Source: Brevundimonas sp. (GTDB lineage Bacteria > Pseudomonadota > Alphaproteobacteria > Caulobacterales > Caulobacteraceae). From it: 32,384 nt of DNA. Shown in pieces: positions 979 through 30,302 of the stretch. Location of the stretch: NCBI RefSeq assembly GCF_018608325.1, contig NZ_JABAZW010000049.1, forward strand, positions 1 through 32,384, in the 5' to 3' direction. Position 1 is the first letter of the stretch. Each line of letters opens with the position of its first letter. Both the position numbers and the translations under genes were made by a program. The notes below the pieces were generated by a model. The model was not told where the DNA came from and made no database searches. It saw only the letters and a program-made list of their open reading frames with translations.

Positions 979-982
979 TCCG

Positions 983-10270: not shown

Positions 10271-13195
10271 TCAGTAGCGGTAGGTCAGTGCGAGACGGAC
10301 GGTGCGGCCCGGCGCGGGCATGACGCCCAACGCAAGCGGGTCGAGGTAGTATTCGTCCATCACATTGTCGATGTTGAGGTCGAGCTTGGTCTGCTCTGTG
10401 ACCTTCAGGCTGGCGAAGGCGTCATAGATGGTCGCCTCCTTGTACAGTTGCTGGATCGCCGACAGGCCGACGTTCCATTCCTGATCCAGCTTGCTGATCG
10501 GGCCGGCGTTGTGGACCGCGCGTCCGCCGATGGTCAGGCGGTCATCGAACAGGCGGGCGCCCAGCGTCAGGTTCAGGTTGAAGCGCGGCGGGTTCTGGGT
10601 GTTGGTGTAGGAGCCTTCGAAGCCGCCATCGACACAGTTGGGCGTGTTCTTCAGCCCGTCGATGTCCCACTCCTCACCGTACTCGCGACGTTCGGCGGCG
10701 ATGTCGGGCGCGCAGGTCTTGGCCTCGAAATAATAGTGGGCCGACAGGTCGCCGAAGACGATGCCGTTGTCATAGGTGGACTGGAACTCGACGCCCGACA
10801 CCTTGAACTGGTCGATATTGCGGATCAGGCCCGCCGACAGGGTGCGGTAGTCGCGGGTGATCAGGTCGTCGATCCGCGTGTTGAAATAGGCCAGTTTGAA
10901 GCCCGCACGGTCGCCGCCGGTGATCAGGTCGCGGCGGATGGTGCTGGCGCCGACTTCCCAGGTCTGGGCGCGTTCTGGCTTCAGCTCACCGGTCGGCTTG
11001 GCCGCGGTGAACAGGCCCAGCGTCGTCTCGAACAGGCTGGGCAGCTTCACGCCCTCGGCGTATTTCACATACAGCAGCGTGTCTTCGTCGAAGCGGTAGG
11101 TGACGCTGGCCGTCGGCATGAAGGCGTCGTCAGTGCGGCGGATCGGGTCGGACCAGGTCCACTCGGTCGGCACGATCAGGTCTTTGATCGGATCGGCGTT
11201 GTAGAAGTTCCAGCCGGTGATGTCGGCGACGGTCCCGCGCTTATAAGGCGAGGCCAGAAGGGAAGCCTGGGTGAACTGCCCATTGGCGTCGGGGTACCAG
11301 TTCAGGGATGCGATGCGTGACGCCTGCCATACGGGCAGGGCGGGGTTGCCGTTCAGCAGTTGGATCGAGCGATATTTGCCGATGACCTCGCGCTTGGAGA
11401 CGGTCGCCAGCCGATTGCGGTCGCGCACATCGACGTGGTTGTAGCGACCACCGACCATCAGCTCCCAGTGTTCGTTCGGCTCCCACTTGGCCGAGGCGAC
11501 GACGCTGTATTCCTTGCGCACCGCGCTGCGCAGGAAGCGGTTGTTGACCAGATCGTCCTGCATCAGCGGCGAGTTGGGGCCGGGGCCGACATCCTCGTGG
11601 CTGAACGACAGGCCGTAGTCGAAGGTGAACTTGCCCAGGTCGGTGAACAGCAGCGAAGTGTTGGTGATGTCGCCGCCGAAACGCTCCTGCGTCAGTTCGT
11701 TGCGATAGGCGTCCTTGTAACCGGGATCGGTGTTGAAGGTCGGCGCGTCCCACCATTCGGTGCGGCGGTCATAGTACCAGGGCGTGATGCCGGTCAGGCC
11801 GTTGTACATCAGGCTGTCGGAGTGGGTGTACCAGGCGTTGGCGCGCAGATCGACCAGATCGCCCAGCTTGCCCTGCGGCTTGTAGCGATAGCGCAGATTA
11901 TAGGCGTCCATGTCCACGTTCCCCAGCGCCCATTGCGGCACGCGGTCACGATCGACGCGGATGATCTGCGAGGCCATGATCTCGCCCTGCTCGCCCTTGT
12001 AGCGGCGGTAACCGGCTTCCAGCGTCTGCTCGTCGGTGATCCGCCATGTGCCTTTCAGCAGCAGGGATTCCGACTGCGACGAGGTGTTGAAGACCTCGGT
12101 ATTCGTGGGGTTCAGCGTGGCCAGAACGCGGCGGCCTTGCGGGAAATCATTATAGCCCCGGTGACCCGAGAAATAGTTGCCAACATCGCGCCAGGCATAG
12201 GCGGCGACCAGGTCGAACTTGTCCCAGCGGCCTGCCGCCGCGACGTTGAAGAACTGTCCGCCCGGGCGGGTCAGGTCGCCGCTGTCCTTGGACGGCACGC
12301 CGCTATAGGCGGGCAGGCTGCGGGCGCTGGCGTCGGACACGCCGGTGCGGACGCGCAGACCCAGATCGTGGCCTTCGGTCAGGACGTCGTCCGCCTTCAG
12401 CGTCTCCATGACCACTACGCCGCCGATGCCGCCCGACGCATTGGCCTGAAGGCTGGGGCCTTTGGTGATGGTGATGTTGGAGATCAGGTCGGGGTCGAGA
12501 TAGGTCCGCTGCGACTGACCGGCATAGCCGCGATAGGTGTCCATCGTGGACTGGCCGCCGTCGATGATGACCGGCACGCGGCTCTGGCCCTGAATGCCGC
12601 GAATGTTCACGTCCAGGGCATTGGCGGTGCGGGGATCGCCCGCCGTCACGCCTGCAACGCCGCGAACGATGTCGGCGGTCGAGGTGCCGCGGAAACGTTC
12701 GATGGTGTCGTGGTCGATATAGGCGCTGGAGCCAGCCGAGCGATAAGGGGCTTCAACCGGGTCGCCGTGGTCGTTGAAGCCGTCGGCGCTCAGGCGTCCG
12801 GCCGAGCCTTCAGTCGCGCCCTGAACCCGCACGGGACCAAGCGCGATGGCGGCGCCGACGGCGGGCGCCGCCGACAGGGTCACAACGCGGCCCGACAGGC
12901 TGTAGGTCACGCCGCTTCCGGCCAGCAGGCGCGACAGGCCGTCCGACACGCTGTATCGGCCCTGCAGGCCGCGCGTGGAGGCGTTGCGCGTCAGGCTGGC
13001 GTCATAGGCCAGTTCGACATTGGCCTGTTGGGCGAAACGGATCAGGGCCGGGGTCAGGGGACCAGCCGGCACGTCAAAGCTGGGCTGGGCCTGAGCCGCA
13101 GCGGGCAGGGGCGCCAGCACAGCCGCCGAAGCGACCGCCGTGGTGGCCATCAGGAAGAGGCGCATGGCCCCGATATTATGTCTCGCCTTGGTCAA
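10271..13195 (-). CDS. TonB-dependent receptor with N-terminal STN signalling domain, hemoglobin/transferrin/lactoferrin (HasR-like) family; translation start possibly at 13165
   Basis: Signal peptide, STN domain (FDVPAGPLTPALIRFAQQANVELAYD...GRYSVSDGLSRLLAGSGVTYSL), plug (NIRGIQGQSRVPVIIDG) and a C-terminal beta-barrel ending in aromatic Tyr (LALTYRY). Confidence 0.9.
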   Translation of the reverse strand: MTKARHNIGAMRLFLMATTAVASAAVLAPLPAAAQAQPSFDVPAGPLTPALIRFAQQANVELAYDASLTRNASTRGLQGRYSVSDGLSRLLAGSGVTYSLSGRVVTLSAAPAVGAAIALGPVRVQGATEGSAGRLSADGFNDHGDPVEAPYRSAGSSAYIDHDTIERFRGTSTADIVRGVAGVTAGDPRTANALDVNIRGIQGQSRVPVIIDGGQSTMDTYRGYAGQSQRTYLDPDLISNITITKGPSLQANASGGIGGVVVMETLKADDVLTEGHDLGLRVRTGVSDASARSLPAYSGVPSKDSGDLTRPGGQFFNVAAAGRWDKFDLVAAYAWRDVGNYFSGHRGYNDFPQGRRVLATLNPTNTEVFNTSSQSESLLLKGTWRITDEQTLEAGYRRYKGEQGEIMASQIIRVDRDRVPQWALGNVDMDAYNLRYRYKPQGKLGDLVDLRANAWYTHSDSLMYNGLTGITPWYYDRRTEWWDAPTFNTDPGYKDAYRNELTQERFGGDITNTSLLFTDLGKFTFDYGLSFSHEDVGPGPNSPLMQDDLVNNRFLRSAVRKEYSVVASAKWEPNEHWELMVGGRYNHVDVRDRNRLATVSKREVIGKYRSIQLLNGNPALPVWQASRIASLNWYPDANGQFTQASLLASPYKRGTVADITGWNFYNADPIKDLIVPTEWTWSDPIRRTDDAFMPTASVTYRFDEDTLLYVKYAEGVKLPSLFETTLGLFTAAKPTGELKPERAQTWEVGASTIRRDLITGGDRAGFKLAYFNTRIDDLITRDYRTLSAGLIRNIDQFKVSGVEFQSTYDNGIVFGDLSAHYYFEAKTCAPDIAAERREYGEEWDIDGLKNTPNCVDGGFEGSYTNTQNPPRFNLNLTLGARLFDDRLTIGGRAVHNAGPISKLDQEWNVGLSAIQQLYKEATIYDAFASLKVTEQTKLDLNIDNVMDEYYLDPLALGVMPAPGRTVRLALTYRY

Positions 13196-13248
13196 CTTCG
13201 CCTCTCATGGCGCGCACTGCGCCAGTCCATATGGGTTCGCATGGTGCG

Positions 13249-13267
13249 AATGAGAATGGTTCTCGGA
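13249..13267. promoter_or_regulatory. Candidate Fur-like box upstream of the TonB-dependent receptor
   Basis: gaatGAGAAtggTTCTCgga, a perfect 5-bp inverted repeat (13252-13256 / 13260-13264) in an AT-richer intergenic region ahead of an iron/heme receptor. Confidence 0.4.
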
Positions 13268-13330
13268 ATATAGACGTGCGAAGTGGCGGAACCGGGACTG
13301 TAGAATCTGAAAAAAAGTTCAGAACGTCGT

Positions 13331-14308
13331 TCAGTCGTGAACGATGACGGCTCCGCCCAGCAGGCGAGTGGAGCGCAGACCCAGCGTCTGCTCCAGCCGT
13401 GTAACGGTCTGGGCGGGCTGGTCGATGCGGAAGGCGCCGCTGACACGGCGATCCCGCGCCTTGCGGCCAATCACCGTCATTGGCTGTGCGGAATAGCGCC
13501 CGATCTCGCTGACGACAGCAGACAGGGGCTGGTCGTCGAACACCAGCCAGCCGTCCTGCCAGGCGCCCACGCCCACCGACGACGCCACCGGGGCGGTCGG
13601 CGCCTGATGGGGGCCATAGGTCGAGGTCTGATCCTGCGCCACAATCACTGACGCGGGGTTCGATGCGACCCGCACCGAATGTTCGGTCACAGACACCTCG
13701 GTCTGCGCGCCGTAGCGCCGCACGATGAACCGGGTGCCAAGCGCCGTGGTCGAGCCGCCGCCGGCCTCGACGGTGAAAGGTCGGTTCGGGTTCGGCGCAA
13801 CAGTGAAGGCCGCCTCGCCACGCAACAGGCGCACGGTGCGGCGGTCGGGGGCATAGTCCACCTGGACGGCGCTGTCGGTGTTCAGTTGCACGGTGGAGCC
13901 GTCGGCCAGCGTCAGCGTCCTCTGTTCGCCGGGCCGGGTGATGACGTCGGCGCGCAGTCGGGTGGGGCCGTCCAAAGCGACGAAGGCGACGGCCAGGGCC
14001 GCGGCCATGCCGGTCGCGATGAGCGGCGCGCGGGATCGGCGACCGCCAGAGGGCGCAGTCGTTCTGCGCCGACGAGAAGACGTGGCGGCTTGCGGCGCGG
14101 GCCGGACGGCGGCCTCGCCCATTTCCAGCCAGAGGACCTGGGCCTTGTCATAGGCGGCGGCGTTCTCGGCGGTCTGCAGCCAGGCTTCCAGATGCGCCGA
14201 GCCTGCGTCATCCAGCAGACCGCTCTGCTGGTCAGCGACCCAGCGCGCAGCTTCGCGATCCGCGCGGGACACGCGGTCGGGCTTTGAGGTGGTGACGGAT
14301 GTCATCAC
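13331..14308 (-). CDS. FecR family anti-sigma/regulatory protein
   Basis: DUF4880-like N-terminus (AARWVADQQSGLLDDAGSAHLEAWLQTAENAAAYDKAQVLW) and FecR domain (LADGSTVQLNTDSAVQVDYAPDRRTVRLLRGEAAFTVAPNPNRPFTVEAGGGSTTALGTRFIVR). GTG start at 14308 or ATG at 14305. Confidence 0.92.
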   Translation of the reverse strand: MMTSVTTSKPDRVSRADREAARWVADQQSGLLDDAGSAHLEAWLQTAENAAAYDKAQVLWLEMGEAAVRPAPQAATSSRRRRTTAPSGGRRSRAPLIATGMAAALAVAFVALDGPTRLRADVITRPGEQRTLTLADGSTVQLNTDSAVQVDYAPDRRTVRLLRGEAAFTVAPNPNRPFTVEAGGGSTTALGTRFIVRRYGAQTEVSVTEHSVRVASNPASVIVAQDQTSTYGPHQAPTAPVASSVGVGAWQDGWLVFDDQPLSAVVSEIGRYSAQPMTVIGRKARDRRVSGAFRIDQPAQTVTRLEQTLGLRSTRLLGGAVIVHD

Positions 14309-14832
14309 AACGCCTCTTGCTCAGCCAGGCGCGTCTGGCAATGGCTGATTGCATGGCGAACATGTTTCGCCACTGCATTTGTTGTAATTCCCAGTCGTTC
14401 GGCAACTTCTGCGGGCGTCAGGCCCTCGACACGCCGCAAAAGAAACACCTCGCGACAACGGGGCGGCAGTTCGTCGATGGCGGCGGACAGCAGGCTTAAC
14501 CGCTGGCGGTCGATGATCCGGGTTTCCGTGGTCGGTGTGGCGTCGGCCATGCGCACATCGTCGGCCTGACCGTCGAACAGGGCTGCGCCGCGCATCCGTT
14601 TCCGCATCTGATCAGAGGTCAGATTCAGCATCAGTCGATAGAGGTAGGCGCGCTTGTCCTTGATCGCCTCGGGATCGGTGATGCGCTGAATGTTCAGCCA
14701 CAGGGTCTGGGTGATGTCTTCCGCCAGGGTGGCGTCGCCCAGTATCCGCCGCGCCATTCGCATCAATGACGTGCGCTCAGTCACCAGCAGCTGGGAAAAG
14801 GCTGCGCGATGTGAAAGGTCGAGGGGGGACAT
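14305..14832 (-). CDS. RNA polymerase ECF sigma factor, FecI-like
   Basis: Sigma-70 region 2 (RMARRILGDATLAEDITQTLWLNI) and region 4 (LPPRCREVFLLRRVEGLTPAEVAERLGITTNAVAKHV). M at 14832 is preferred over the listed start at 14874 because the latter lies inside a long inverted repeat. Confidence 0.9.
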   Translation of the reverse strand: MSPLDLSHRAAFSQLLVTERTSLMRMARRILGDATLAEDITQTLWLNIQRITDPEAIKDKRAYLYRLMLNLTSDQMRKRMRGAALFDGQADDVRMADATPTTETRIIDRQRLSLLSAAIDELPPRCREVFLLRRVEGLTPAEVAERLGITTNAVAKHVRHAISHCQTRLAEQEAL

Positions 14833-14844
14833 TCGCGATGCGCG

Positions 14845-14879
14845 ATAACGTGTCTGCGAGTGAATCGCAAACACGTTAT
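14845..14879. promoter_or_regulatory. 15-bp inverted repeat (14/15 matches, 5-nt spacer), candidate operator or hairpin in the sigma-factor 5' region
   Basis: ATAACGTGTCTGCGA-GTGAA-TCGCAAACACGTTAT; not followed by a T-tract on either strand. Confidence 0.6.
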
Positions 14880-16292: not shown

Positions 16293-18605
16293 TCAGCTTG
16301 AGGTTTGTTGGGCCGTGACCTGTCGTTGTCTGATGGTTCTCAGACCGGGCGCCAGCAACCAAAGGCCGTAGATCACAACCAGGACAACCAAGACCGTCGC
16401 CTCAGGAGCAACGTCGGACAGACTGGCGCCGGTCGAATTCATCTTCACGAAGGCCTGCACCCCTGCCGTCGAGGGGAACAGATTGGCCAGCCAGACCAGC
16501 GGTTGGGGCATCATGAAGTGCGGCCAGGCCGTGCCGCCCAGGAAAAACAGCGGCGCCGAGGTGCCGACCAGCACCTGCAGCACCCGTTCGTGCCGGTCGA
16601 ACAGGCCGCCCAGGCAAAGACCCAGCGCCGACACCGCCGCCGAGAACAGCGGCGCCAGAAGGATGACGCCGATCAGGTCGCCAGCACGTGGATAATCCTG
16701 AATCCAGAAGACGAAGCCGAAATAGAACAGGCTGGACAGCGTGCCGATGACGGTCAGGGCCAGCCACAGGCCCAGACGACTTCTGAGCCGTAAGATGGGC
16801 GCCCCCGTCTCACGTCGTATGGCGGCGATGACGCCCGCGCCCAGCAGCAGGGTCTGCTGCAGGATGACTATGCTGACCGCCGGGACCGCATAGTCGCCGT
16901 ATCCTTCGGTGGGATTGAACAGCGACACCTGTTTCAGGCTGGGCGTCAGTGACGCGGCGCGCGCGACCTCAGGCAGGCCGTTCAGGCGTTTACGGATCAC
17001 ATCGACGACCGCGCCAGCCGCCGCCTTGCCGATTGAGGTCACGCGGACCAGATAGCCGCCGTTCAGATAGATGGCGACGCCGTCGGGCGCGCCCCGTGCC
17101 AGGCTGGCCTCGAACCCGTCCGGCAGGACGATGATGCCGTCGACGACGCCGCGCTTCATCAGGGTCTGCGCTTCCTCGACAGAGGATGCGACGGCGGCGA
17201 CCTCGATGGCGTGGCTGGCGTTCAGATCCTCGACCAGAGTGCGCGTCGTCGGCGTCTGACTGCTGGTCACCACCGCCAGAGGCAGGCCGGTGGCGGACTG
17301 ACCCGAATAGGCCGCCGGGTAATAGAAGGCGTACAGCACCACCGCGAGCAGCAGCAGGCTGGCGACTGGACGGGCTTTCACAATGCCTGCGAAGGTGGCG
17401 GTGAAACTGCCGACGAAGCTCTGTGTGGGCAGGGGGAAGGTCAGGGGCTCGACCTTGGGTTCGCGGGTGGCCCGCCAACGGACCGCCAGGGCGGCGATGA
17501 TGAAGGCGCCAAGGGTCACCGCGCAGAGGATGAGCAGGTCGTGGACTGCGGCGGGCCGCGCTCCATCAGTCACCATCTGACTGGTCTGAAGCCGCAGATA
17601 GTGGGTGTAGGGCAGGACGTCGCTCCAGAACTGGGCGAAGCGCGGGCCGTGATCCAGCGGCAGGGTTCCATTGGAAAAGGCGATGGCTGCGCCCGAGTAG
17701 ATAGCCGTGGCGGAGAAGGCCATGTCGTTGTCGCCCGACACCGCGACCAACAAGGCCGACAGGGCGACGCTGACCGCCATCAGGGCCGCCATGCCCAGCA
17801 CCAGCAGGGGCAATGACCCAGCCACGCCCCAACCCCGAAACCCGCAAAGCCAGACAATCCAGGCCAGTCCCCACAGGGTGAAGATCAGGAAATGCGGCGT
17901 CAGATGCCCCGCCAGAGCCGCCGTCGTGCGGCCCCCATTCGAAACCTTGAAGGGGCGAAATGACTTGCCCTGCATCAAGCGCCCGACGGCCAGCACCGCT
18001 GAACAGGCGGCCAGCAGATGCAGGACGCCGGGGCCGAGCAGGCCGCCCAGAAACAGTTCGAAGTTCAGTTGCGAGTTGCCGATGATCGACACCTGCACAT
18101 CTGGCGGGCTGAGTGCGGTCGCAGGTGCGCCCATCTGTCGGGCGCGTTCTTCAAGCACGGGCGCAGCCGCCGAGGCGATGGCGGCGGACTGGTTCAACGC
18201 CGTCAGGGCCCCGGCCGTCTGGAAGGCGCCGTTGAAATAGACCGTCGCCTGTTCAGGCTGTCGAAAGGCGCCCCCGCTGAAGCCGGAGGGGAAATAGGCG
18301 AAGCTGAAAATCTTGCCCTGCCGCATAAGCCTCATCGCCTCGTCCAGAGTGGCGGGGGCATAGGCGACATCAAGGCCCGAACTGGCCTGCATGTTGCGGA
18401 TGGCGGCGCGGCTGAAGCTGGATCGGTCATGATCGACGACAGCGGTCGGAGAGCCGTGAATGACCCCCGGCGCGAACATCAGCGCGATCACCGCCAGCAG
18501 GATCAACGGCAGGCCAAAGGCTACGAACGCGTCCCATGGCCGCGTCAGCAGCAGGCGCGTTTCATCACGCACGGCCCGGGCGAAGGCCGCGCGGCTGGAC
18601 ATCAT
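16293..18605 (-). CDS. ABC-2 type transporter permease, two permease modules fused in tandem (770 aa)
   Basis: Two successive ABC-2 membrane modules. N-half PTAVVDHDRSSFSRAAIRNMQ...TLDEAMRLMRQGKIFSFAYFPSGF parallels C-half LAVVTSSQTPTTRTLVEDLNA...SVEEAQTLMKRGVVDGIIVLPDGF. Confidence 0.85.
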   Translation of the reverse strand: MMSSRAAFARAVRDETRLLLTRPWDAFVAFGLPLILLAVIALMFAPGVIHGSPTAVVDHDRSSFSRAAIRNMQASSGLDVAYAPATLDEAMRLMRQGKIFSFAYFPSGFSGGAFRQPEQATVYFNGAFQTAGALTALNQSAAIASAAAPVLEERARQMGAPATALSPPDVQVSIIGNSQLNFELFLGGLLGPGVLHLLAACSAVLAVGRLMQGKSFRPFKVSNGGRTTAALAGHLTPHFLIFTLWGLAWIVWLCGFRGWGVAGSLPLLVLGMAALMAVSVALSALLVAVSGDNDMAFSATAIYSGAAIAFSNGTLPLDHGPRFAQFWSDVLPYTHYLRLQTSQMVTDGARPAAVHDLLILCAVTLGAFIIAALAVRWRATREPKVEPLTFPLPTQSFVGSFTATFAGIVKARPVASLLLLAVVLYAFYYPAAYSGQSATGLPLAVVTSSQTPTTRTLVEDLNASHAIEVAAVASSVEEAQTLMKRGVVDGIIVLPDGFEASLARGAPDGVAIYLNGGYLVRVTSIGKAAAGAVVDVIRKRLNGLPEVARAASLTPSLKQVSLFNPTEGYGDYAVPAVSIVILQQTLLLGAGVIAAIRRETGAPILRLRSRLGLWLALTVIGTLSSLFYFGFVFWIQDYPRAGDLIGVILLAPLFSAAVSALGLCLGGLFDRHERVLQVLVGTSAPLFFLGGTAWPHFMMPQPLVWLANLFPSTAGVQAFVKMNSTGASLSDVAPEATVLVVLVVIYGLWLLAPGLRTIRQRQVTAQQTSS

Positions 18606-19624
18606 CGGCGCGACCAGTCGAACAGGACGCTCATGCCCGGACGCAGGTTGGCGGTGGGCTGGACGGGCTTGGCCTTGATGGCGAAGCTGCGCACGTCATA
18701 GCCGCTGGACTGGCGGGTCGAGCGCCAGGTGGCGAACTCGCCCTGCGGGCTGATGGCGGTGACGCGGAACGCCACGTTTTTGAGGCCCAGCGCGGGGATG
18801 TCGCCATGCAGCGTCGCGCCCATTTTCAGGTCGCGATACTGGTCCTCGCGAACGGTGAAGGACACCCACGGATCGGTGGTGTCGACCACGGTGTAAACAG
18901 GCACGCCGATCAGGACCAGTTCGCCGACATTGGCGAACCGCTGGGACACCTCGCCCGCATGGGGGGCGACCAGACGGGTTTCGGACTGCAGGCTGGTGGT
19001 TTCGGCGACGGCGGCCTGCGCCCCGCTGACCTGGGCGTCGGCGACGGATCGTTCCTGCGGGCGGGTTCCGGTCTGGGCCTTCACATACTGCTGACGGGCG
19101 GCCTCGGTCTGGGCGGCGGTGGCGGCGCGGGCGGCGACGGCTTCGTCACGACGCTGGGCCGAGATGACGCCCTCGGCGAACAGGGCCTCGGCGCGTCGGG
19201 CGGTCTGGTCGGCCAGACGTTCCGTGGCCTGACTGGCGCGCCAGATGGATTCGACGGTGCGGATGTCTTCGTGCCGGGCGCCCTCGCGGCTGAGGGATTG
19301 CAGCGCCTCGGCGGATTGCAGCAGGGCGCGAGCCTGAACGTCCTTGGCCTCGATCTCGGGGCTGCTCATGACAGCCAGCACTTGCCCTGCAGTGACCCGG
19401 TCGCCTTCGGAGACTAGCAGTTGCTCGACGCGGCTGGGTGCCTTGGTGGCGACGGTGAAGGTCTCGGCCTCCACCATGCCCTGAATCTGCTCCTGCGGCG
19501 GACGGGCGGCCAGGAACAGGCCGATGATGATGAAACCCACCAGCAGTATGGCCCCTGCGGCGATGATCCAGACGCGCAGGGCGCCGCGCTTGCGCGAGGG
19601 GGGCGTGGCTGTCGTCTCGCTCAT
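18602..19624 (-). CDS. HlyD family secretion protein / membrane fusion adaptor
   Basis: Single N-terminal TM, lipoyl-like segment (TVATKAPSRVEQLLVSEGDRVTAGQVLAVMSSPEIEAK), coiled-coil, and C-terminal barrel (RLVAPHAGEVSQRFANVGELVLIGVPVYTVVD). Confidence 0.9.
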   Translation of the reverse strand: MSETTATPPSRKRGALRVWIIAAGAILLVGFIIIGLFLAARPPQEQIQGMVEAETFTVATKAPSRVEQLLVSEGDRVTAGQVLAVMSSPEIEAKDVQARALLQSAEALQSLSREGARHEDIRTVESIWRASQATERLADQTARRAEALFAEGVISAQRRDEAVAARAATAAQTEAARQQYVKAQTGTRPQERSVADAQVSGAQAAVAETTSLQSETRLVAPHAGEVSQRFANVGELVLIGVPVYTVVDTTDPWVSFTVREDQYRDLKMGATLHGDIPALGLKNVAFRVTAISPQGEFATWRSTRQSSGYDVRSFAIKAKPVQPTANLRPGMSVLFDWSRR

Positions 19625-21117
19625 GGTGCGCTGATCCGGTCGTCGCGTTGCAGATAGTCGTTCAGGGTCTGGGGGCTGCTGGACGCCGCCAGCAGGGCCG
19701 CCAGACTGAGATCATATTCATAGGCGGCCACCGCCCTTTGCAGGCGCGCGGCCCCCAGCAGGTTGCGGGCGTCCACCACCGCAGAGACAGGGGATTCGCC
19801 CTCGCGGAAGGCGATCTCCTGCACCCGCAGGTTTTCGGTCGCCGCCGTCAGGCTGGAGTCCATCGACAGGAACTGCCGACGCGCCAGGTCGACCTGATTA
19901 TAGGCGCGCGTGACCAGCAGCCGCGCGTCGTCGCGCGCCTGACGTTCCATCTCGCCCGCGGCCTGCGCCTGTGACCGGGCGGCGCCGGCCATGCGACGAC
20001 GGTCGATGGACGACATCAGGGTGTAGCGCGCCCCGATGCCGACGGCCCAGTCCGGCTCGGTCGGCAGGGCGTTGTCGGGGTTCAGATTGTAGGTTCCGAA
20101 GGCATAGACGGTGGGCCGGAACCGCGACTCCGCCAGATCGACGCCCGCTTCGGCCAGATCGCGGGTGGCCTGGGCCTGGGCGATGCGGGCGTTGGACTGG
20201 GACGCCTGGGCGACAAAGACGTCCATCGGCCCGACCGAGGTGCGGTTGACGAACAGCGACGTTGTGGGCGTCACCCCATCGTCAAGGTTCAGAACCCGAC
20301 CCAGCGATTGAACCGAGTTGTCGTATTCCAGCTGGGCACGGTCCAGTTGGCGCTGTGAAGCATCGCGGGCCACCTGCACCTGCAGCGTCTGGGCGTGGCT
20401 GAGCACGCCTTCGCGCTCCATCCGCTCGGCGTTGCGCAGATGAAGATCAAAGCCGTCGCGGGTTTCGGTGGATATGCGCACCGCCTCCGCCGCCAGCACC
20501 TGTCCGAAATAGGCGCGGGCCAGATTGACGCCTTCCAGATCCACGGCCTCGCGGCGGCGCGCCTGGGCCAGATCGACATTGGCGGCGGCGGCGCGTTGCA
20601 GGGCGGGGATGGCGCCGCCGCTGTAGATGGGCTGCAACGCGGTCAGGGTTGGGCGAAACGCGGTGTCCTCGACCTCCAGCCGCACATCGGTGGGCAAGGC
20701 GGCGAAGATTTCCGGCAGGGCGGCCTGCAGCCGTTGTCCGACGGTCTGAAGAATATCACCCGGTATGCCGGGCAGGTCCGAGATCAATCCCGGAATGGCG
20801 GCGCCCAGTTCGGACTGGGCCTTGTCCAGCGCGCCGGTCAGGGAGATGTCGAAGGTCTTGCGGTAGCGGATGGCCTGAGCGTCCAGCGACACTGTGGGCC
20901 GCCGCAGACCCGCCGCCGCAGCCGCCTGTTCGCTGGCGGCGTCCACGCCGTAACCGGCTGCGCGTGACAGGCTGGAGGAGGAGCGCAGGCGCGCCGTGGC
21001 TTCGGCATAGGTCAGCGGCGTCTGCTGCGGCGACGCCGTCTGGGCGGACGCAGCGCCTGCGAGAAACAACGCGAAGGGCAGTCCGATCCATGCTGAAGCC
21101 ATCATCGATCCTTGCAA
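19621..21117 (-). CDS. TolC family outer membrane protein
   Basis: Signal peptide and OEP repeats (VNLARAYFGQVLAAEAVRI, FREGESPVSAVVDARNLLGAARLQRAVAAYEYDLSLAALLAASS); 4-nt overlap with the adaptor. Confidence 0.88.
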   Translation of the reverse strand: MQGSMMASAWIGLPFALFLAGAASAQTASPQQTPLTYAEATARLRSSSSLSRAAGYGVDAASEQAAAAAGLRRPTVSLDAQAIRYRKTFDISLTGALDKAQSELGAAIPGLISDLPGIPGDILQTVGQRLQAALPEIFAALPTDVRLEVEDTAFRPTLTALQPIYSGGAIPALQRAAAANVDLAQARRREAVDLEGVNLARAYFGQVLAAEAVRISTETRDGFDLHLRNAERMEREGVLSHAQTLQVQVARDASQRQLDRAQLEYDNSVQSLGRVLNLDDGVTPTTSLFVNRTSVGPMDVFVAQASQSNARIAQAQATRDLAEAGVDLAESRFRPTVYAFGTYNLNPDNALPTEPDWAVGIGARYTLMSSIDRRRMAGAARSQAQAAGEMERQARDDARLLVTRAYNQVDLARRQFLSMDSSLTAATENLRVQEIAFREGESPVSAVVDARNLLGAARLQRAVAAYEYDLSLAALLAASSSPQTLNDYLQRDDRISAP

Positions 21118-22392: not shown

Positions 22393-22491
22393 ATGACCCC
22401 GAAACACGACGGTTCACCCATGCTGCGAAATGCCTTCAGGGATAAGAATACGGGCCTGACCGCCCGTCACGTGCAGGGTGCGTCGCAATGA
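22393..22491 (+). CDS. Candidate short leader ORF (32 aa): MTPKHDGSPMLRNAFRDKNTGLTARHVQGASQ
   Basis: ATG at 22393; its TGA at 22489-22491 overlaps the KAS III ATG (22488-22490) as ATGA, the same coupling used elsewhere in this operon. No strong ribosome-binding site seen. Confidence 0.3.
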   Translation: MTPKHDGSPMLRNAFRDKNTGLTARHVQGASQ

Positions 22492-23483
22492 CGGGGCTGG
22501 CCTTCGTTGGATATGGCGCGGCTCTACCCGAAAGGCGCAGGCCGTCGTCTGAACTGGACGCTGTATTCGGCCAATCATCGGGATGGACTGAAGGGCAGTT
22601 CGGCATCTCCAGTCGAGCGGTCGCGTCGCCTGAGGAAACAACCTCCGTTTTGGGCGCCCGCGCGGCGAGAGCGGCGCTTGAGATGGCGGGGTGGGGCGAG
22701 GGGGATTTCGACGTTCTGATCGGCGCCTGCGGCGTGATGGAGCAGCCGATTCCGGGAACCTCAGTCTTGATCCAGAATGAACTGGGATTGGGCAAATCTG
22801 GCATCTGGGCGTTTGACGTGAACCAGACCTGCCTGTCGTTCCTGGCTGCGCTGGACATCGTCGCCATGGGGTTTGCGACGGGGCGCTGGAAACGCGCGCT
22901 GGTGGTGTCGAGCGACATTGCATCAGCGGGGCTGGATTGGGCGACCCCAGCCTCGGCCGCCATTTTCGGCGACGGGGCGGCGGCGGTCTGCATCGAGGCG
23001 CGGGCGGATGATGAAGGCCCCGCTCTGATCAGTCGCCGGTTCGAAACCTATGGCGAGGGCAAGGATCTGGCCGTCCTGCGCTCTGGCGGCACACGGATCC
23101 GCGCCACGGACGGTTATGAGGCGTTGCTGGAGGGCGCGCGGTTCCGCATGGACGCCTTCGGGGTGTTCAAGGCGGCGGCCAAGGTCTTGCCGCGCATGAT
23201 CGACGGGGTGCTGGAGGAGGCGGGCCTGACGCGCGAAACCGTCGATCTGGTCATCTGCCATCAGGCCAGCCGACCCGGCGTCGAACATGTGCGGCGATTG
23301 ATGGGCGGCGACCCGGAACGGGTCATCGACATCTTCTCGGATCGCGGCAACCAGATCGCCGCGTCTCTGCCCAGCGGCTTGGTCGAGGCGCAGTCTCTGG
23401 GGCGGGTGAAGCCGGGAACAACAGTTCTTCTGCTGGGAACCGCCGCCGGAATCAGCGCGGCGGCCATGGTGCTGCGGTTCTGA
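22488..23483 (+). CDS. 3-oxoacyl-ACP synthase III family protein (FabH/OleA-like thiolase fold)
   Basis: Cys in FDVNQTCLSFLAALD, His in VICHQASRPG, Asn in SDRGNQIAASLPSGL, and the FGDGAAA motif: the KAS III Cys-His-Asn triad. Confidence 0.88.
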   Translation: MTGLAFVGYGAALPERRRPSSELDAVFGQSSGWTEGQFGISSRAVASPEETTSVLGARAARAALEMAGWGEGDFDVLIGACGVMEQPIPGTSVLIQNELGLGKSGIWAFDVNQTCLSFLAALDIVAMGFATGRWKRALVVSSDIASAGLDWATPASAAIFGDGAAAVCIEARADDEGPALISRRFETYGEGKDLAVLRSGGTRIRATDGYEALLEGARFRMDAFGVFKAAAKVLPRMIDGVLEEAGLTRETVDLVICHQASRPGVEHVRRLMGGDPERVIDIFSDRGNQIAASLPSGLVEAQSLGRVKPGTTVLLLGTAAGISAAAMVLRF

Positions 23484-24466
23484 TGCGGCGTGCACTGGTT
23501 ACAGGCGCGACAGGCGGGTTGGGGCTGGCTCTGACCGAGGGGCTGATTGCAGCCGGATATGCCGTGCGTGCGACAGGACGGTCTGCTGGCGCCGTGCAGC
23601 GGCTGAAGGCCATGGGCGCGGATGTGGTCCTATGCGATCTGCTGCAGGCTGACCTGACCCGATTGTGCGACGGCGTTGATGTGGTCTTTCACGCGGCGGC
23701 CCTGTCCAGCCCCTGGGGGGCGGAAGCGGTGTTTCAGCGCATCAATGTCGATGTGACCGAGAGGCTGCTGGCGTCGGCGCAGGTGACGGGGTGCGACGCC
23801 TTCGTCTTCGTGTCGTCGCCATCGATCTATGCCGATTTCAAGGATCAGGAGGGGCTGACAGAGGACAGCCCGCCGACCCTGCGCCCGTTGAACGCCTATG
23901 CCCGAACCAAGCTGACGGCTGAGCGGCAGGTGCTGGCGGCGGATCGGCCCGGCTTCCGCACAATCTCCATCCGTCCGCGCGCCCTGATCGGGCCGGATGA
24001 TGCGGTTCTGCTGCCCCGGATTCTTGAGATGGTTCGACGCGGCAGGCTGCCTGTCCTGCGCGGCGGCGTCGCCCGGATCGACCTGACGGACGTGCGCGAT
24101 GCGGTGAAGGCCCTGGTGCTGGCGGACCAGAATCGTGAGGCAGTGGGCGGGCGGCCAATCAATATCTCGGGCGGTCAGCCGATCCGTATTCTCGATCTGG
24201 CTGAGCGGTTGTGTGAGGTTTTGGAAGTGAGGCCACGGCTGGTCCCCGTTCCGATGGCGCCGATGCGGGTTCTGGCCTCGGTGTCAGAGACGGTGTGTGG
24301 CGCATGGCCGGGCCGCCCCGAGCCGAAGATCACCCCCTATACTCTGGCCATCCTGGCCTATTCCCAGACCTTCGACCTGTCCTATGCGCGGACCGCTCTA
24401 GGCTATTCACCCGCCCATGATGCGGTGGCGATTGCGCTGGATCTGGCGCCGAGGATGGCGGCATGA
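23483..24466 (+). CDS. NAD(P)-dependent epimerase/dehydratase, 3beta-HSD/OleD-like extended SDR
   Basis: N-terminal nucleotide-binding TGATGGLG, FHAAALSSPWG, SSPSIYADF, and YARTK (YxxxK) catalytic motif; 1-nt TGATG overlap with the upstream gene. Confidence 0.88.
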   Translation: MRRALVTGATGGLGLALTEGLIAAGYAVRATGRSAGAVQRLKAMGADVVLCDLLQADLTRLCDGVDVVFHAAALSSPWGAEAVFQRINVDVTERLLASAQVTGCDAFVFVSSPSIYADFKDQEGLTEDSPPTLRPLNAYARTKLTAERQVLAADRPGFRTISIRPRALIGPDDAVLLPRILEMVRRGRLPVLRGGVARIDLTDVRDAVKALVLADQNREAVGGRPINISGGQPIRILDLAERLCEVLEVRPRLVPVPMAPMRVLASVSETVCGAWPGRPEPKITPYTLAILAYSQTFDLSYARTALGYSPAHDAVAIALDLAPRMAA

Positions 24467-25308
24467 CGCGCTGTCAGGTCCATGTGTTGAAGGCAGGTTC
24501 GTGTCGTCACCCGGAGGCGATGGCGCGAAGCGGCGCGGGCTGGGCGCCGGTCGAGTTTCCGGCTCTGGCAGGCCTGATCATGCACCCGACGGTGGGGCCG
24601 GTGCTGTTCGACACCGGCTATGACCCGGCCTTCTTCAGGGCGACCCAGCCGTTTCCAGAGCGGTTCTATCGCTGGACGACGCCAGTCGATCTGCCGGACG
24701 GGCGGGCTGTCGTCGACCAGTTGGGCCGCTTCGGCTTGAAGCCGGAGGATGTGCGGGCGGTCGTCATCTCGCATTTCCACGGCGACCATATCGCTGGGCT
24801 GCACGCCTTTCCTAAAGCGACGCTGTTTTGCGCGCGGGCAGGATTGGCGGATGTGCGCGGTCATGGGCGATTGGCGCGGGTCCGGCGCGGCATTCTGGAT
24901 GGACTGTTGCCCGCCGATATCGACGCCCGCGGGCGCTTTTTCGAGGATCTGCCGCGTGCGCCGCTGGGTGATGACATGGCGCCCTTCAGCGATGGCGCAG
25001 ACCTGTTTGGCGACGGCTCCATGCTGGCGGTTCCTCTACCAGGCCATTGTCCGGGGCATTGGGGGGTGGTCCTGCGAGGCGAGGACGACCGGCGTCATTT
25101 CCTGATCGGAGACGCCGCATGGTCGCGACGCGCTGTACGCGACGACGCCCCGCCGCCGCGCCTGACCACCAGTATCCTGGGCGAGACGGAAACCTATCGC
25201 CGGACCCTGCATGATCTGCATCGCCTCTGGACACGAAACGCCGACCTGGTGGTGACGCCGTCACATTGCGCCGAAGCAGCGGCGGAGATCGGCGGCGATG
25301 ACGCCTGA
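24463..25308 (+). CDS. MBL-fold metallo-hydrolase
   Basis: HFHGDHIAG (HxHxDH), PGHCPGHWGV and GDAAWS metal-binding motifs; ATGA overlap. Confidence 0.9.
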   Translation: MTRCQVHVLKAGSCRHPEAMARSGAGWAPVEFPALAGLIMHPTVGPVLFDTGYDPAFFRATQPFPERFYRWTTPVDLPDGRAVVDQLGRFGLKPEDVRAVVISHFHGDHIAGLHAFPKATLFCARAGLADVRGHGRLARVRRGILDGLLPADIDARGRFFEDLPRAPLGDDMAPFSDGADLFGDGSMLAVPLPGHCPGHWGVVLRGEDDRRHFLIGDAAWSRRAVRDDAPPPRLTTSILGETETYRRTLHDLHRLWTRNADLVVTPSHCAEAAAEIGGDDA

Positions 25309-26554
25309 CCGCAAAGTCATCGGTCGGGCCTGGGCGGCGACGCAGTTCGACAGGCTTCGTTTGCGAACCCGCGCCGACGTGGAGCGGCGCCAGAACGACC
25401 TGTGGCGACGGCTGCAGCCGGTGCTGGCGCGCACCCCGGCTCTGGCTGCCTATGCCGGACGTCCGCTGGGTGAGTTCCCGATTTTTACGCCTACGAAGGT
25501 GCGCGCCGCCTTTGCAGATTGGAACACGCTGGGTCTGGATGAAGCCTCGGTCATGGCGGCGGCGCAGGCGGCTGAGGAAGGGCGCGACGGTGGTCTTGCT
25601 GGCGGCGTGACAGCAGGCTTTTCAACGGGCTCCAGCGGTTCGCGTGGTCTGTTTCTCGCCAGCCCAACCGAGCGCGCCGCCTATGTCGGTCATGCCCTGG
25701 CGCGGCTGTTGCCGCTGGATGCGCCGTTGCGGACCTGGCGTATCGCGCTTTGCCTGAGGGCCGACAGCGCCCTTTATCGGGATGTCGGCGGGGCTGGTCG
25801 GGTGTCGTTCGACTTCATCGGTCTGGATACGCCTGCAGATCAGCGAATGGCGCGTCTCGAGGCGTTTCAGCCGCATGTGCTGATCGCGCCGTCGCATGTC
25901 CTGGCGGATATTGCACGACGGGCGGGCGAGGGCGTTCGGTGGCCGTTGCGGCGTCTGCTTTATGGCGCTGAACCGATGGGCGAGGGCGAACGCGACTGGA
26001 TCGGCCAGCGATTGGGCTTGAGGCCTGATCCCATCTATCAGGCGACCGAGGGCTTTTTGGGTGCGGCCTGTCGGTTCGGGACGCTGCATCTGAACGAGGA
26101 CGTGCTGATCATCGAGCGTGACCCCATTGCGGGCACGAACCGTTTTCGTCCCATCGTCACTGATCTGAGGCGGGTCAGCCAGCCGGTGGTGCGGTTGCGG
26201 CTGGACGATGTGTTGGAGCCTGCTGGCCCGTGCCGATGCGGTTCGCCGTTGCTTGCGGTGCGGGGCGTGGAAGGCCGTTATGACGACCTATGGCGCTGGG
26301 GCGACCACGTCATTCCGCCGCGTGACGTGGAGGACGCTCTGGCTCACGCCTTGGGTCCGCAGCAGGATTGGCGCGTGACGGGCAGTGCAAAGGGCGTGGT
26401 GATCGAGGTCGATCCTGCCGTGGCGCCTGTCGCCGTAGGGGCGTTGGACGGGTTGTTGTCGAAGGTTGAGAACGGTCCGACAATCGTTGTCGCTCCATCG
26501 CCGATCTGGGATCAGCCGAAGCGTCGGCGCATCCGGTGGTCTGATGCCCAATAG
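25298..26554 (+). CDS. F390 synthetase / phenylacetate-CoA ligase-like adenylate-forming enzyme
   Basis: STGSSGSRGLFL phosphate-binding motif, YQATEGFLG, LRLDDVLEPAGPCRCGSPLLAVRGVEGRYDD; 11-nt overlaps on both sides. Confidence 0.82.
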   Translation: MTPDRKVIGRAWAATQFDRLRLRTRADVERRQNDLWRRLQPVLARTPALAAYAGRPLGEFPIFTPTKVRAAFADWNTLGLDEASVMAAAQAAEEGRDGGLAGGVTAGFSTGSSGSRGLFLASPTERAAYVGHALARLLPLDAPLRTWRIALCLRADSALYRDVGGAGRVSFDFIGLDTPADQRMARLEAFQPHVLIAPSHVLADIARRAGEGVRWPLRRLLYGAEPMGEGERDWIGQRLGLRPDPIYQATEGFLGAACRFGTLHLNEDVLIIERDPIAGTNRFRPIVTDLRRVSQPVVRLRLDDVLEPAGPCRCGSPLLAVRGVEGRYDDLWRWGDHVIPPRDVEDALAHALGPQQDWRVTGSAKGVVIEVDPAVAPVAVGALDGLLSKVENGPTIVVAPSPIWDQPKRRRIRWSDAQ

Positions 26555-27704
26555 GGTGCTGATCACAGGCGCGCGGGCGCCGGCTGCGCTCGATCTGGCG
26601 CGCAGTTTCGCCGCGGCGAACTGGGAAGTTCATCTGGCGGACAGTTGTGCCTGTCTGATGGCGCGATGGTCTGGCGTGGCCGAGGCTGTGCATCGGTACG
26701 CCTCGCCGAAACTGCAGTCAGAGATTTTCAGGTCTGATCTTCAATCTCTGATGCAGAGATTTGAATTTAATCTGATTGTTCCTGTGTGTGAGGAAGTCTT
26801 TCATCTGGCTGAGGCTGCGGCTTCGCTGGGTTTTGCCGACCGCCTCTTTGCGCCGTCGCCGCAGGTTTTGAATGACCTCCATTCCAAAAGTCGCTTCGTT
26901 CAGGTGTGCGAGCGGTTAGGGATTTCGGTCCCGAAAACACGTCGGATCAGCGGGCAGGCGGAACTGGATCAGTTGGCGCCGGAGACGGAAAGACTGGTGT
27001 TCAAGCCGGAGTATTCCCGCTTTGGAGCCGAGATCCTGATCGGCCCATCCGCGTCGCAACTGACCCAAATTTCACCTGCCGAAGACCGTGTCTGGGTAGC
27101 GCAGGATCGGATCGTGGGTGAGGAGGTCTGTTTTCATGCTGTTGCAGTGAACGGCGTCCTGACGGCTTTTGCCGCCTATGGTTCGCCATGGCGCAGGCCG
27201 GGCGGCGTCGGTTATGCCTTTGAATCGCTGGCCGAGGTGGCTGCGGCCCCTTTGTTCGAGGCGGCGCAACGGTTGGCAGGCTTTGTCAGGGACGGCCAGT
27301 TCGCCTGTGACGCCATCATCGACGCTGACGGCCGTCCCTGGATGATCGAATGCAATCCGCGTGGCACCAGCGGTCTGCATCTGTTCGGAGGGCGTAGTGA
27401 ACTGGCCTTGGCGATGACCGGGCAGGCGGACCGTCTGGTCAGGGGGCGTGAACGCGGGCATCTGGGATTGGCGATGTGGCTCTATGGCCTGCCAGAGGCG
27501 ATCAAGCAGAGGCGTATGGCGTCCTGGTCGCGTGAACGGCGCGAGGGGCAGGACGTGATCGCCAGGGGCGGCGGCGCGGCGCCTGTGTTGGGTGCTCTGA
27601 TCGACAGCGCCGTCTTTTCGATGCGCGCGGCGCGGACCGGATGCAGTCTGGAGCAGGCCATGACCCGTGATATCGAATGGAACGGCCCCGGAGGCGCGCA
27701 ATGA
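26544..27704 (+). CDS. ATP-grasp domain protein (carboxylate-amine ligase-like)
   Basis: MPNRVLITGARAPAALDLARSFAAANWEVHLADS, LVFKPEYSRFGAEILIG, VAQDRIVGEEVCFHAVAVNG, DAIIDADGRPWMIECNPRGTSG: ATP-grasp lysine and Mg-ligand motifs. Confidence 0.85.
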   Translation: MPNRVLITGARAPAALDLARSFAAANWEVHLADSCACLMARWSGVAEAVHRYASPKLQSEIFRSDLQSLMQRFEFNLIVPVCEEVFHLAEAAASLGFADRLFAPSPQVLNDLHSKSRFVQVCERLGISVPKTRRISGQAELDQLAPETERLVFKPEYSRFGAEILIGPSASQLTQISPAEDRVWVAQDRIVGEEVCFHAVAVNGVLTAFAAYGSPWRRPGGVGYAFESLAEVAAAPLFEAAQRLAGFVRDGQFACDAIIDADGRPWMIECNPRGTSGLHLFGGRSELALAMTGQADRLVRGRERGHLGLAMWLYGLPEAIKQRRMASWSRERREGQDVIARGGGAAPVLGALIDSAVFSMRAARTGCSLEQAMTRDIEWNGPGGAQ

Positions 27705-28714
27705 CGCCCTTGCCTGACAGTATCGCGCGCAGTTGGCAGTTGGCCGCTTTGTCGACTGAGGTTCGCGCCAAGCCATTGGCGCGCAAGGTGGCGGACACGC
27801 CGGTCGTGCTGTTTCGCGACGCGGATGGGAGGATCGCGGCCCTGCTGGATCGCTGTCCGCATCGGAACTTTCCGTTGTCCGACGGGCGGATGAAGGGCGG
27901 TGCGGTGGTCTGTCCCTATCACGGATGGAGGTTCGGGGCGGACGGCGACTGTCTGGAGGTGCCGGGTTGTGAACTGGCCGCAGGCGATGGCGCGCGGCTG
28001 GCGGCCAGCCCCGTCGCCGCTATCGAGCGCAATGGCGGCGTCTTCGTGCGGTTGAAGGAGGGGCAGGCGGACCTGCCTGATCTGGGCGTCTGGGGCGACG
28101 ATGACCATGACCATTTCTGGTGGGCGCAGGGCGTGTGGCGGGGCAGGGCGCTGGACGCGATCGAAAACGTGCTCGACGCCTTCCACACCAACTACATCCA
28201 CGACGGCATCATCCGACGCAGCAATCGGCGGATGCCAGTTCACCTCAGCACCAATGTGTTTGAGACCAGCATCGAGCAGGTGATCGAACAGCCTGTTCCT
28301 GATCTGGGGTGGATGTCACGCATGCTGGAGCCGCCCCGCGACCGCAGCCGCACGCGCCTCTATGCCCCGACGACGGTGCAGGCGCGGTGGGAGGGGCCGA
28401 AGGGTCTGACCCTGTGCGTGTCCGCCTTCTTCACCCCGGTCGACGCCGGTTCGCTGCGTCCGTTCGCCCGCTTCACGACGCCCAAGGGGCGCGGACCTGG
28501 CTGGCTGAAGGAGGCGGCCATCCGTCTGTTCCTGAACCCGGTGGTCGCCCAGGATCGCCGGGCTCTGGCGCGGCAACTGGATGGTATCGAAGCCTTCGGC
28601 GGGCCGCGCTTCATTCAGGGGCCGGGTGATCTGCTGGGCGCGCGGGTGGCGCAACTCTATCAGGGCCAGAGGTTGGAGCCGGGCGTGGAAGGCCCGTTCA
28701 TTCGCACGCTTTAG
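27701..28714 (+). CDS. Rieske non-heme iron oxygenase (alpha subunit-like)
   Basis: Rieske motif CPHRNFPLSDGRMKGGAVVCPYH (C-x-H-x16-C-x2-H) and mononuclear iron motif DAFHTNYIH (D-x2-H-x4-H); ATGA overlap. Confidence 0.9.
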   Translation: MTPLPDSIARSWQLAALSTEVRAKPLARKVADTPVVLFRDADGRIAALLDRCPHRNFPLSDGRMKGGAVVCPYHGWRFGADGDCLEVPGCELAAGDGARLAASPVAAIERNGGVFVRLKEGQADLPDLGVWGDDDHDHFWWAQGVWRGRALDAIENVLDAFHTNYIHDGIIRRSNRRMPVHLSTNVFETSIEQVIEQPVPDLGWMSRMLEPPRDRSRTRLYAPTTVQARWEGPKGLTLCVSAFFTPVDAGSLRPFARFTTPKGRGPGWLKEAAIRLFLNPVVAQDRRALARQLDGIEAFGGPRFIQGPGDLLGARVAQLYQGQRLEPGVEGPFIRTL

Positions 28715-29160
28715 AGCGATTGATCGATCTTCGCTTCCAACTCCCAGCACGCGCCGACGCGGCTGAACACAAACCTGAGCTGATAGTCGGTGTCCGGCTT
28801 GGTCAGATCAACAATCTGATCGCCGTTGCTTTGCGCAAGGAAGCGTGTCCTCAGACCTTCAGTGCGTTGTTGTGCAGTGTTTGGAATGACGGGGTACTGG
28901 ATGGCTTCGCGGGGGCGGTTGCGTGTCACCATCACAGGATCGGGTGTGTCATCGCTGGCTTCATAGGCGGAGAAATCAACGGAGGTGGCCGAAAACTGGC
29001 GCTGGACTTCTGTCGAATTGGCGAACGCCCGGAAGAAGCTGGTGAAATCGCCGGCGGGACAGGCCGCTGCGGCCTGAGCCGAACCCGCGGCCGCAGTCGC
29101 TATGCCCAGGGCGCCGATGGCGATCATCAGTCGCGGCGTCAGTCGTGACGAAGAGATCAT
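28711..29160 (-). CDS. Hypothetical secreted protein
   Basis: Signal peptide MISSSRLTPRLMIAIGALGIATAAAGSAQAA, then CPAGDFTSFFRAFANSTEVQRQFSA...CWELEAKIDQSL. Start placed at ATG 29160. Confidence 0.7.
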   Translation of the reverse strand: MISSSRLTPRLMIAIGALGIATAAAGSAQAAAACPAGDFTSFFRAFANSTEVQRQFSATSVDFSAYEASDDTPDPVMVTRNRPREAIQYPVIPNTAQQRTEGLRTRFLAQSNGDQIVDLTKPDTDYQLRFVFSRVGACWELEAKIDQSL

Positions 29161-29522
29161 GTCGGTTTCCTGTCTTGAGGCGATGATGTCGAGACCGCCG
29201 CGTTTGCGCCGTTCGTGCGTTTGGGGCGAACGCTGAACACCGCGAAAATGATCCATAGGACCAATGAAATCATGATGATGGGGGCTGTGAAGATCAGCAG
29301 GAACATCGCCATGAAGCCGTTGTAGAGGGTGTCTGATATGTCGGCGCCCATCACCATGCAGGGACGGGCATAGGCCTCGTTGACCTGGCAGTTGAAGGCT
29401 GATGCGGCGCCTGCGCTGATCAGGCCCGCCAGCAACGGCGCCCAGCCGACCAGGCTGGACACAAGCGCGGCCCAGAACAGCAGTGTGTTGCGGCTTTTGT
29501 TCTCGGCGGGGTGGCGGGTCAC
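29157..29522 (-). CDS. Small hypothetical membrane protein (two predicted TM helices)
   Basis: LLFWAALVSSLVGWAPLLAGLISAGAA and FMAMFLLIFTAPIIMISLVLWIIFAVF. GTG start near 29522 inferred; the listed start at 29618 is less likely. ATGA overlap with the downstream gene. Confidence 0.6.
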   Translation of the reverse strand: MTRHPAENKSRNTLLFWAALVSSLVGWAPLLAGLISAGAASAFNCQVNEAYARPCMVMGADISDTLYNGFMAMFLLIFTAPIIMISLVLWIIFAVFSVRPKRTNGANAAVSTSSPQDRKPT

Positions 29523-29598: not shown

Positions 29599-29693
29599 TT
29601 TATTTTTCGCGCCACCAACTTGGATTGGGCAGCCTAGGCGGGGCCTGCTGTTTCTAAGTTTTATGACGCTCCGATGCCTGCTATGCGGTGACC

Positions 29694-30302
29694 ATGGGAA
29701 GGCGATCAGATCACACGCGTCAGGAGCTCGAACATCTGTTCGTGGTCGAAGGCCATAAACATATGGCCGAGGTGGGGTTTGCCCGCTTCTCTGCGCGTGA
29801 GGTGGCCAAACGGATCGGCTATTCCGTGGGCACGCTCTATAACGTGTTTGGAACGCTGGATCGGCTGCTGATCACGATCAATACGCGCACCTTCCAGCTT
29901 TGGGCCGACTATGTGCGGCAAAGGCTTGAAGCCAGCGGTGCCGACCGGATCCAGACGCTGGTCGAGGCCTATTTCGGTTTTGCGCGCGACAATGCGAACA
30001 GCTGGACCGCCATCTATGACCACCATCTGCCGCCGGACGTCGCTATTCCCGACGAGCAGAACCTGCAGCGCGGCGCTTTGACCCAGCTCATTGTGGACGA
30101 GGTTGCGTCTGTGCTGCCGACGCAGGCGCAGTCTGAGGCGCCACGTCTGGCGCGCTCGTTGATCGCGGTGGTGCACGGGCATTGCGTCTTCGATCCGAAC
30201 GGCAGTTTCGCCCTGATGAACATCAGCCAGCCAATGGAGCTGGCTCTGGATCGTGTGTGGGAAGCCTTGATCCACGCCGGGGCTGCGCCGCCTTCACGTT
30301 GA
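29694..30302 (+). CDS. TetR/AcrR family transcriptional regulator
   Basis: N-terminal HTH (VEGHKHMAEVGFARFSAREVAKRIGYSVGTLYNVFGTLDRLLITINTRTF) followed by a divergent ligand domain. ATG 29694 (alternative GTG 29688). Confidence 0.9.
   Translation: MGRRSDHTRQELEHLFVVEGHKHMAEVGFARFSAREVAKRIGYSVGTLYNVFGTLDRLLITINTRTFQLWADYVRQRLEASGADRIQTLVEAYFGFARDNANSWTAIYDHHLPPDVAIPDEQNLQRGALTQLIVDEVASVLPTQAQSEAPRLARSLIAVVHGHCVFDPNGSFALMNISQPMELALDRVWEALIHAGAAPPSR

Follow-up and report, generated by a model that had tools for sequence, protein, structure and literature searches.

The window, that is, the whole 32,384-nucleotide stretch of Brevundimonas DNA analyzed here, contains a compact operon at positions 22488–28714 of the plus strand. 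Its six ORFs are present at the coordinates first given, and each starts with ATG. The overlaps at the five junctions noted in the first-pass annotation (1, 4, 11, 11, and 4 nt, in order) were reproduced. The first gene (22488–23483) encodes a KAS III-type ketosynthase of 331 aa (Pfam ACP_syn_III and ACP_syn_III_C), which is allied to CorB and MxnB, not to FabH or OleA, according to its solved relatives, trees, and motifs. It is followed by an extended short-chain dehydrogenase/reductase (SDR) of the OleD/3β-HSD type (23483–24466, 327 aa; Pfam Epimerase and 3Beta_HSD) and by a lactonase-type metallo-β-lactamase-fold hydrolase (MBL; 24463–25308, 281 aa) assigned from its structure model, PDB folds, and a complete set of di-metal ligands. 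The fourth product is an F390-synthetase-related adenylate-forming ligase (25298–26554, 418 aa), and the fifth is a PRK06849-like ATP-grasp ligase (26544–27704, 386 aa) with a C-terminal DIEWNG motif. The last gene (27701–28714) encodes a Rieske-type oxygenase with a VanA_C-like catalytic domain (Pfam Rieske and VanA_C), 337 aa long from the supported start. Its start is most likely at 27701, rather than at the earlier in-frame ATG at 27677, because the homology with Brevundimonas nasdae opens at the eighth residue of the longer version. The six proteins are 83–96% identical to those of B. nasdae, and the dN/dS values of all six genes in this comparison (NG86) are about 0.04–0.17; the operon is therefore maintained under purifying selection. 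None of the six products reaches the curated cut-off of its nearest named family at NCBI, and thus each is a divergent member of its family. No ACP gene is encoded within the six-gene operon, and searches of the six ORFs with Pfam and NCBIfam gave no match to an α/β-hydrolase.

Downstream of the operon lies a plus-strand gene for a TetR-family regulator (29688–30302; TetR_N and TetR_C_33), the probable regulator of the operon. A minus-strand ORF between the two (28711–29256) finds no counterpart at the B. nasdae locus, where both of its neighbors are conserved. A sigma-70 promoter scan of the operon region gave no match, which says nothing either way on the promoter. Just upstream, an export-type set on the minus strand (16293–21117) consists of ABC-2 transporter, HlyD, and outer-membrane efflux genes. 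Further upstream are an iron-uptake-type signaling set, also on the minus strand (10271–14874; TonB-dependent receptor, FecR, and ECF sigma factor), and an RND efflux-type row (70–8669) made up of an HlyD-like ORF, an AcrB-type pump gene (788–4099), a second long ORF (4096–7284), and an outer-membrane efflux gene. A role of the RND pump genes in the pathway is not supported, since no such family recurs in the neighborhood survey described below.

In the alignment, the catalytic Cys–His–Asn triad of the KAS is intact, and the best solved relatives of the enzyme are CorB and MxnB. OleA has an essential Glu followed by Pro (Glu117 in Xanthomonas campestris; PMC7064751). At this column, the operon KASs, including that of the window, have Ile/Leu–Pro, three OleA-group rows have Glu–Pro, and most FabH rows have Phe; CorB and MxnB have Val where OleA and PpyS have Glu (PMC4578411). 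The active-site segment reads HQAS or HQGS (HQ-x-S) in 31 of the 31 operon KAS rows, with HQAS in the window, and HQAN-x-R in all seven FabH rows. In the tree, the operon KASs form one group separate from FabH and OleA, and the split of the operon KASs plus CorB/MxnB from FabH and OleA has a support of 99/98. CorB and MxnB are on a long branch, and positions nested inside or beside the operon KASs are not told apart (p-AU 0.355). The window KAS scores 102.8 bits (cut-off 285) against PRK09258 (NF006720), which we take to be the OleA family, and 172 bits (cut-off 292) against the FabH model TIGR00747. The earlier view of this KAS as OleA-like is contradicted by the missing Glu–Pro, the low score, and the position outside the OleA group. 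Another locus of the genome, broken between two contigs, matches FabH better, and the operon KAS is therefore not the housekeeping one; the HQAS segment and the TIGR00747 score also rule out this identity. The window KAS shares with the CorB/MxnB type the triad, a hydrophobic residue at the Glu105/Glu117 site, and the grouping against FabH. MxnB fuses two β-ketoacyl chains in vitro (PMC5724707). Based on this activity, the grouping with CorB/MxnB, and the active-site motifs, chain fusion by the operon KAS is our leading hypothesis.

The catalytic motifs of the other enzymes were likewise found intact, as had been claimed. The SDR was previously called OleD-like, and OleD is indeed its best NCBIfam match, but the score is far under the cut-off (167.7 versus 580 bits), and its closest solved sequence is sterol-4-α-carboxylate 3-dehydrogenase. 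The structure model of the MBL (pLDDT 94.8) has AHL lactonases and a pyridoxolactonase as its best PDB folds, and the di-metal ligands His104, His106, Asp108, His109, His195, Asp217, and His268 are invariant in 38 aligned sequences. The F390-type ligase scores 214.4 bits against TIGR02304, under the curated cut-off of 251.9; its adenylate-forming motifs as well as Cys258, Cys312, and Cys314 are invariant. The ATP-grasp protein reaches 254.9 bits against NF005315 (cut-off 406), and its ECNPR motif is invariant in 24 aligned sequences. In its structure model (pLDDT 93.6), the nearest folds are GAR synthetase and L-amino-acid ligases, a fold that is consistent with amide formation. The alignments supplied for structure prediction contained no sequences taken from plasmids or E. 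coli. For the Rieske oxygenase, the closest solved sequence is the oxygenase of dicamba O-demethylase.

To survey the neighborhoods, one genome per species was scanned with an ATP-grasp alignment, 80 loci were kept, and the neighbor genes were scored with profiles built in this analysis. The first-pass annotation had named a lack of co-conservation in relatives as its possible refutation; KAS, SDR, and MBL are all beside the ATP-grasp gene in 64 of these loci, which were found by the ATP-grasp alone. This recurrence and the low dN/dS values put the operon beyond a chance arrangement. The individual genes are present in 67 (KAS), 65 (SDR), 65 (MBL), 57 (F390), and 62 (Rieske) of the 80 loci, together with a GNAT-like gene in 53 and TetR in 16. 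A TetR homolog adjoins the operon in 18 loci of a wider set. When the ORFs surrounding 98 loci were all clustered, the seven operon families, including the GNAT-like one, and TetR were the only widely shared families, antisense ORFs aside. The commonest architecture is that of the window, without GNAT (17 loci, Brevundimonas/Erythrobacter type). The GNAT-like gene, usual elsewhere, is not in the window operon, and the Caulobacter Root655 copy, used as the query, found no match in the rest of the genome (draft 90.7% complete, no positive control). The hosts are mostly alpha-, beta-, and gammaproteobacteria, along with a spirochete and an Opitutaceae MAG. Within the genus Brevundimonas the distribution is patchy: the F390 search matched 19 of 131 genomes, and the neighboring genes are carried by all 11 of these whose loci were checked.

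The operon appears to be built of two partly independent modules, KAS–SDR–MBL(–F390) and ATP-grasp–GNAT–Rieske, which are on opposite strands in some loci; the latter is found without a nearby KAS in loci L112 and L114. SDR and MBL are jointly missing in three Asticcacaulis loci (L092, L101, and L104), which suggests that these two enzymes act together. The Xanthomonas and Stenotrophomonas loci examined have no F390 gene near the operon. On the large Pseudomonas plasmid pMPPla107 (L126:5780–9368), F390-related and ATP-grasp homologs are close together, without KAS, SDR, or MBL nearby. Two Deinococcus plasmids have the ATP-grasp gene with an adjacent GNAT gene (L129:9995–12243) or with an unnamed gene of GNAT-like size (L131:9995–12252), and no other operon genes are annotated nearby in either.

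A wider family emerged when the F390 ligase was searched against plasmid records; in it, the KAS–SDR–MBL–F390 block is joined to other partners. The same gene order is seen in the window, many alphaproteobacterial loci, Paraburkholderia, Rhizobium, Paracoccus, Ketogulonicigenium, and E. coli. The four-gene block is present in 674 of 5,426 complete E. coli genomes (approximately 1 in 8), and 672 of the places are chromosomal. In E. coli, the block is followed by genes for PAP2, a fatty-acid hydroxylase, and a desaturase, and the whole is located between narI and tyrT (L139:7001–13882 and L204:572–7453). The bearers include the asymptomatic bladder strain ABU 83972, and no paper on the narI–tyrT operon was found. 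Elsewhere, the block is adjoined by a divergent TetR–sulfotransferase pair (Paracoccus and Ketogulonicigenium), DUF3419 and GNAT (Rhizobium), or a GT21 glycosyltransferase and a second SDR (Fusobacterium). Plasmids of Bacillota have the order KAS–ATP-grasp–SDR–MBL–F390, with GNAT in addition in Paenibacillus. Two relatives from operons of this kind exceed the NCBI cut-offs, namely the Paenibacillus KAS (424.9 versus 402 bits, PRK07204) and the E. coli ligase (755.5 versus 251.9 bits, TIGR02304). PAP2, fatty-acid hydroxylase, desaturase, GT21, DUF3419, and sulfotransferase partners are typical of lipid modification. Mainly because of these partners, we infer that the block is a lipid-backbone cassette with swappable tailoring.

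Here, we propose a six-step scheme for the operon of the window, the Brevundimonas type of a modular biosynthetic operon whose distribution is patchy. We infer the substrates, the order of the steps, and the product, and give the scheme as a whole slightly less than an even chance. In the first step, the KAS III would catalyze a Claisen condensation, most likely joining two acyl or β-ketoacyl thioesters from primary lipid metabolism as in CorB/MxnB, and the SDR would then reduce a ketone of the condensed chain. The lactonase-type MBL may hydrolyze an ester, lactone, or thioester to give a free acid, which the F390-type ligase would adenylate. The ATP-grasp enzyme would couple a carboxylate to an amine or amino acid, and the Rieske oxygenase would hydroxylate or desaturate the product. 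The predicted end product is an amide-type amphiphilic lipid or lipid-like metabolite, made under the control of the neighboring TetR; in the relatives, other tailoring or head-group genes come after the same front block. A chain formed by KAS and SDR and then activated and ligated, as the first-pass annotation had it, is still the best reading, and its OleA-like condenser has been dropped. The linear order may be wrong because the steps are not all obligatory, as seen in Asticcacaulis without SDR and MBL and in Xanthomonas/Stenotrophomonas without a nearby F390 gene. Since ATP-grasp, GNAT, and Rieske also occur without a nearby KAS, the ATP-grasp enzyme may act on another substrate. A bolder proposal, which is possible but rather doubtful, is that the block represents an undescribed cross-phylum route to a new lipid class made from two fused acyl chains. 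Its interchangeable head-group modules would be ATP-grasp/GNAT/Rieske here, fatty-acid hydroxylase/desaturase/PAP2 in E. coli, and glycosyl, sulfo, or DUF3419 modules elsewhere.

Three other explanations were weighed. If the KAS corresponded to OleA, the SDR to OleD, and the F390-type ligase to the β-lactone synthetase OleC, with the MBL replacing OleB, the operon would produce a β-lactone or an olefin. The OleD-type SDR as best NCBIfam match and the presence of both an adenylating enzyme and a lactonase-fold hydrolase speak for such an OleABCD-like route. We regard it as improbable, because the KAS without the Glu117–Pro of OleA (PMC7064751) falls outside the OleA group and far under its cut-off, the ligase belongs to the F390/PaaK type, no α/β-hydrolase is assigned in the operon, and neither the ATP-grasp nor the Rieske enzyme would have a role. 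Membership of the Ole pathway proper is ruled out by the KAS motif, the scores, and the tree. It is also unlikely that the KAS acts as an alternative FabH and forms an unusual 3-hydroxy fatty acid for attachment to a known lipid or amine by the ligase and the ATP-grasp enzyme. The segment that distinguishes all 31 operon KAS rows (HQAS/HQGS) from the seven FabH rows (HQAN-x-R), the extended OleD/3β-HSD type of the SDR, which is not FabG, and the better FabH match elsewhere in the genome argue against this fatty-acid starter variant, even though the KAS is still FabH-like (172 bits to TIGR00747) and a KAS and a reductase suffice for 3-hydroxyacyl formation.

The fold of the MBL, nearest to AHL lactonases, raises another idea, in which the enzymes of the operon form and open a diffusible lactone-like signal, with the linked TetR as its sensor. 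The TetR of the window, a homolog of which accompanies the operon in 16 of the 80 loci, has weak similarity to ScbR, FabR, and FasR, and some head-to-head ketosynthases do make signals, such as the photopyrones formed by PpyS (PMC4578411). PpyS is of another KAS type, having the Glu, the TetR similarities are only 21–24 bits and far under the cut-offs, and in operons with fatty-acid hydroxylase, desaturase, PAP2, or GT21 genes, these partners resemble enzymes that tailor membrane lipids; a signaling lactone thus has a small probability. We retain the scheme leading to an amide-type lipid as the preferred reading.

No description of the gene families, the gene combination, or the product was found in the open-licence literature, which does not prove novelty, and related terms gave only papers on Ole and pyrones. 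Together with the co-conserved gene set, this upholds the initial proposal of one uncharacterized biosynthetic operon. We conclude that the operon is genuine, widespread, and uncharacterized, that its product is probably a lipid-like molecule, and that versions of it exist in several bacterial phyla. No product was found described for a block that many environmental bacteria carry and that also recurs in E. coli (674 of 5,426 complete genomes). Should this product prove to be a condensed lipid, it would be a membrane or signal molecule overlooked in well-studied organisms. Because the partner genes are interchangeable, the proposal can be tested by a lipid comparison between strains that have the block and strains that lack it.

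Among known systems, PRK07204 (NF005541), TIGR02304, and PRK06849 (NF005315) are the same protein families as the operon KAS, ligase, and ATP-grasp, respectively, but no pathway is attached to these names, and none of the cut-offs is reached by the window proteins. The operon ligase belongs to the same adenylate-forming superfamily as F390 synthetase and PaaK and has the conserved ligase motifs, whereas its similarity to solved PaaK-type ligases is weak (E 2e-4) and its score with the PaaK model is far under the cut-off. The AHL lactonases AiiA, GcL, and AhlX have the closest fold to the MBL and the full metal-ligand set; in contrast, the MBL is only 17–26% identical to AHL lactonases, does not reach the AttM/AiiA cut-offs, and sits in a biosynthetic operon. 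The OleABCD olefin/β-lactone pathway also combines a thiolase-fold condensing enzyme, an OleD-type SDR, an adenylate-forming enzyme, and a hydrolase. The operon differs from it in lacking the Glu–Pro of OleA, in scoring under the OleA and OleD cut-offs, in having a ligase and a hydrolase of other families, and in its extra ATP-grasp and Rieske enzymes. CorB and MxnB of corallopyronin and myxopyronin biosynthesis provide the closest solved structures to the KAS, share the Q-x-[hydrophobic]-P and CLSF motifs, and group with it against FabH. They act terminally in polyketide assembly lines and form α-pyrones, whereas the operon has no PKS and adds an SDR, an MBL, a ligase, an ATP-grasp enzyme, and a Rieske oxygenase to its condensing enzyme.
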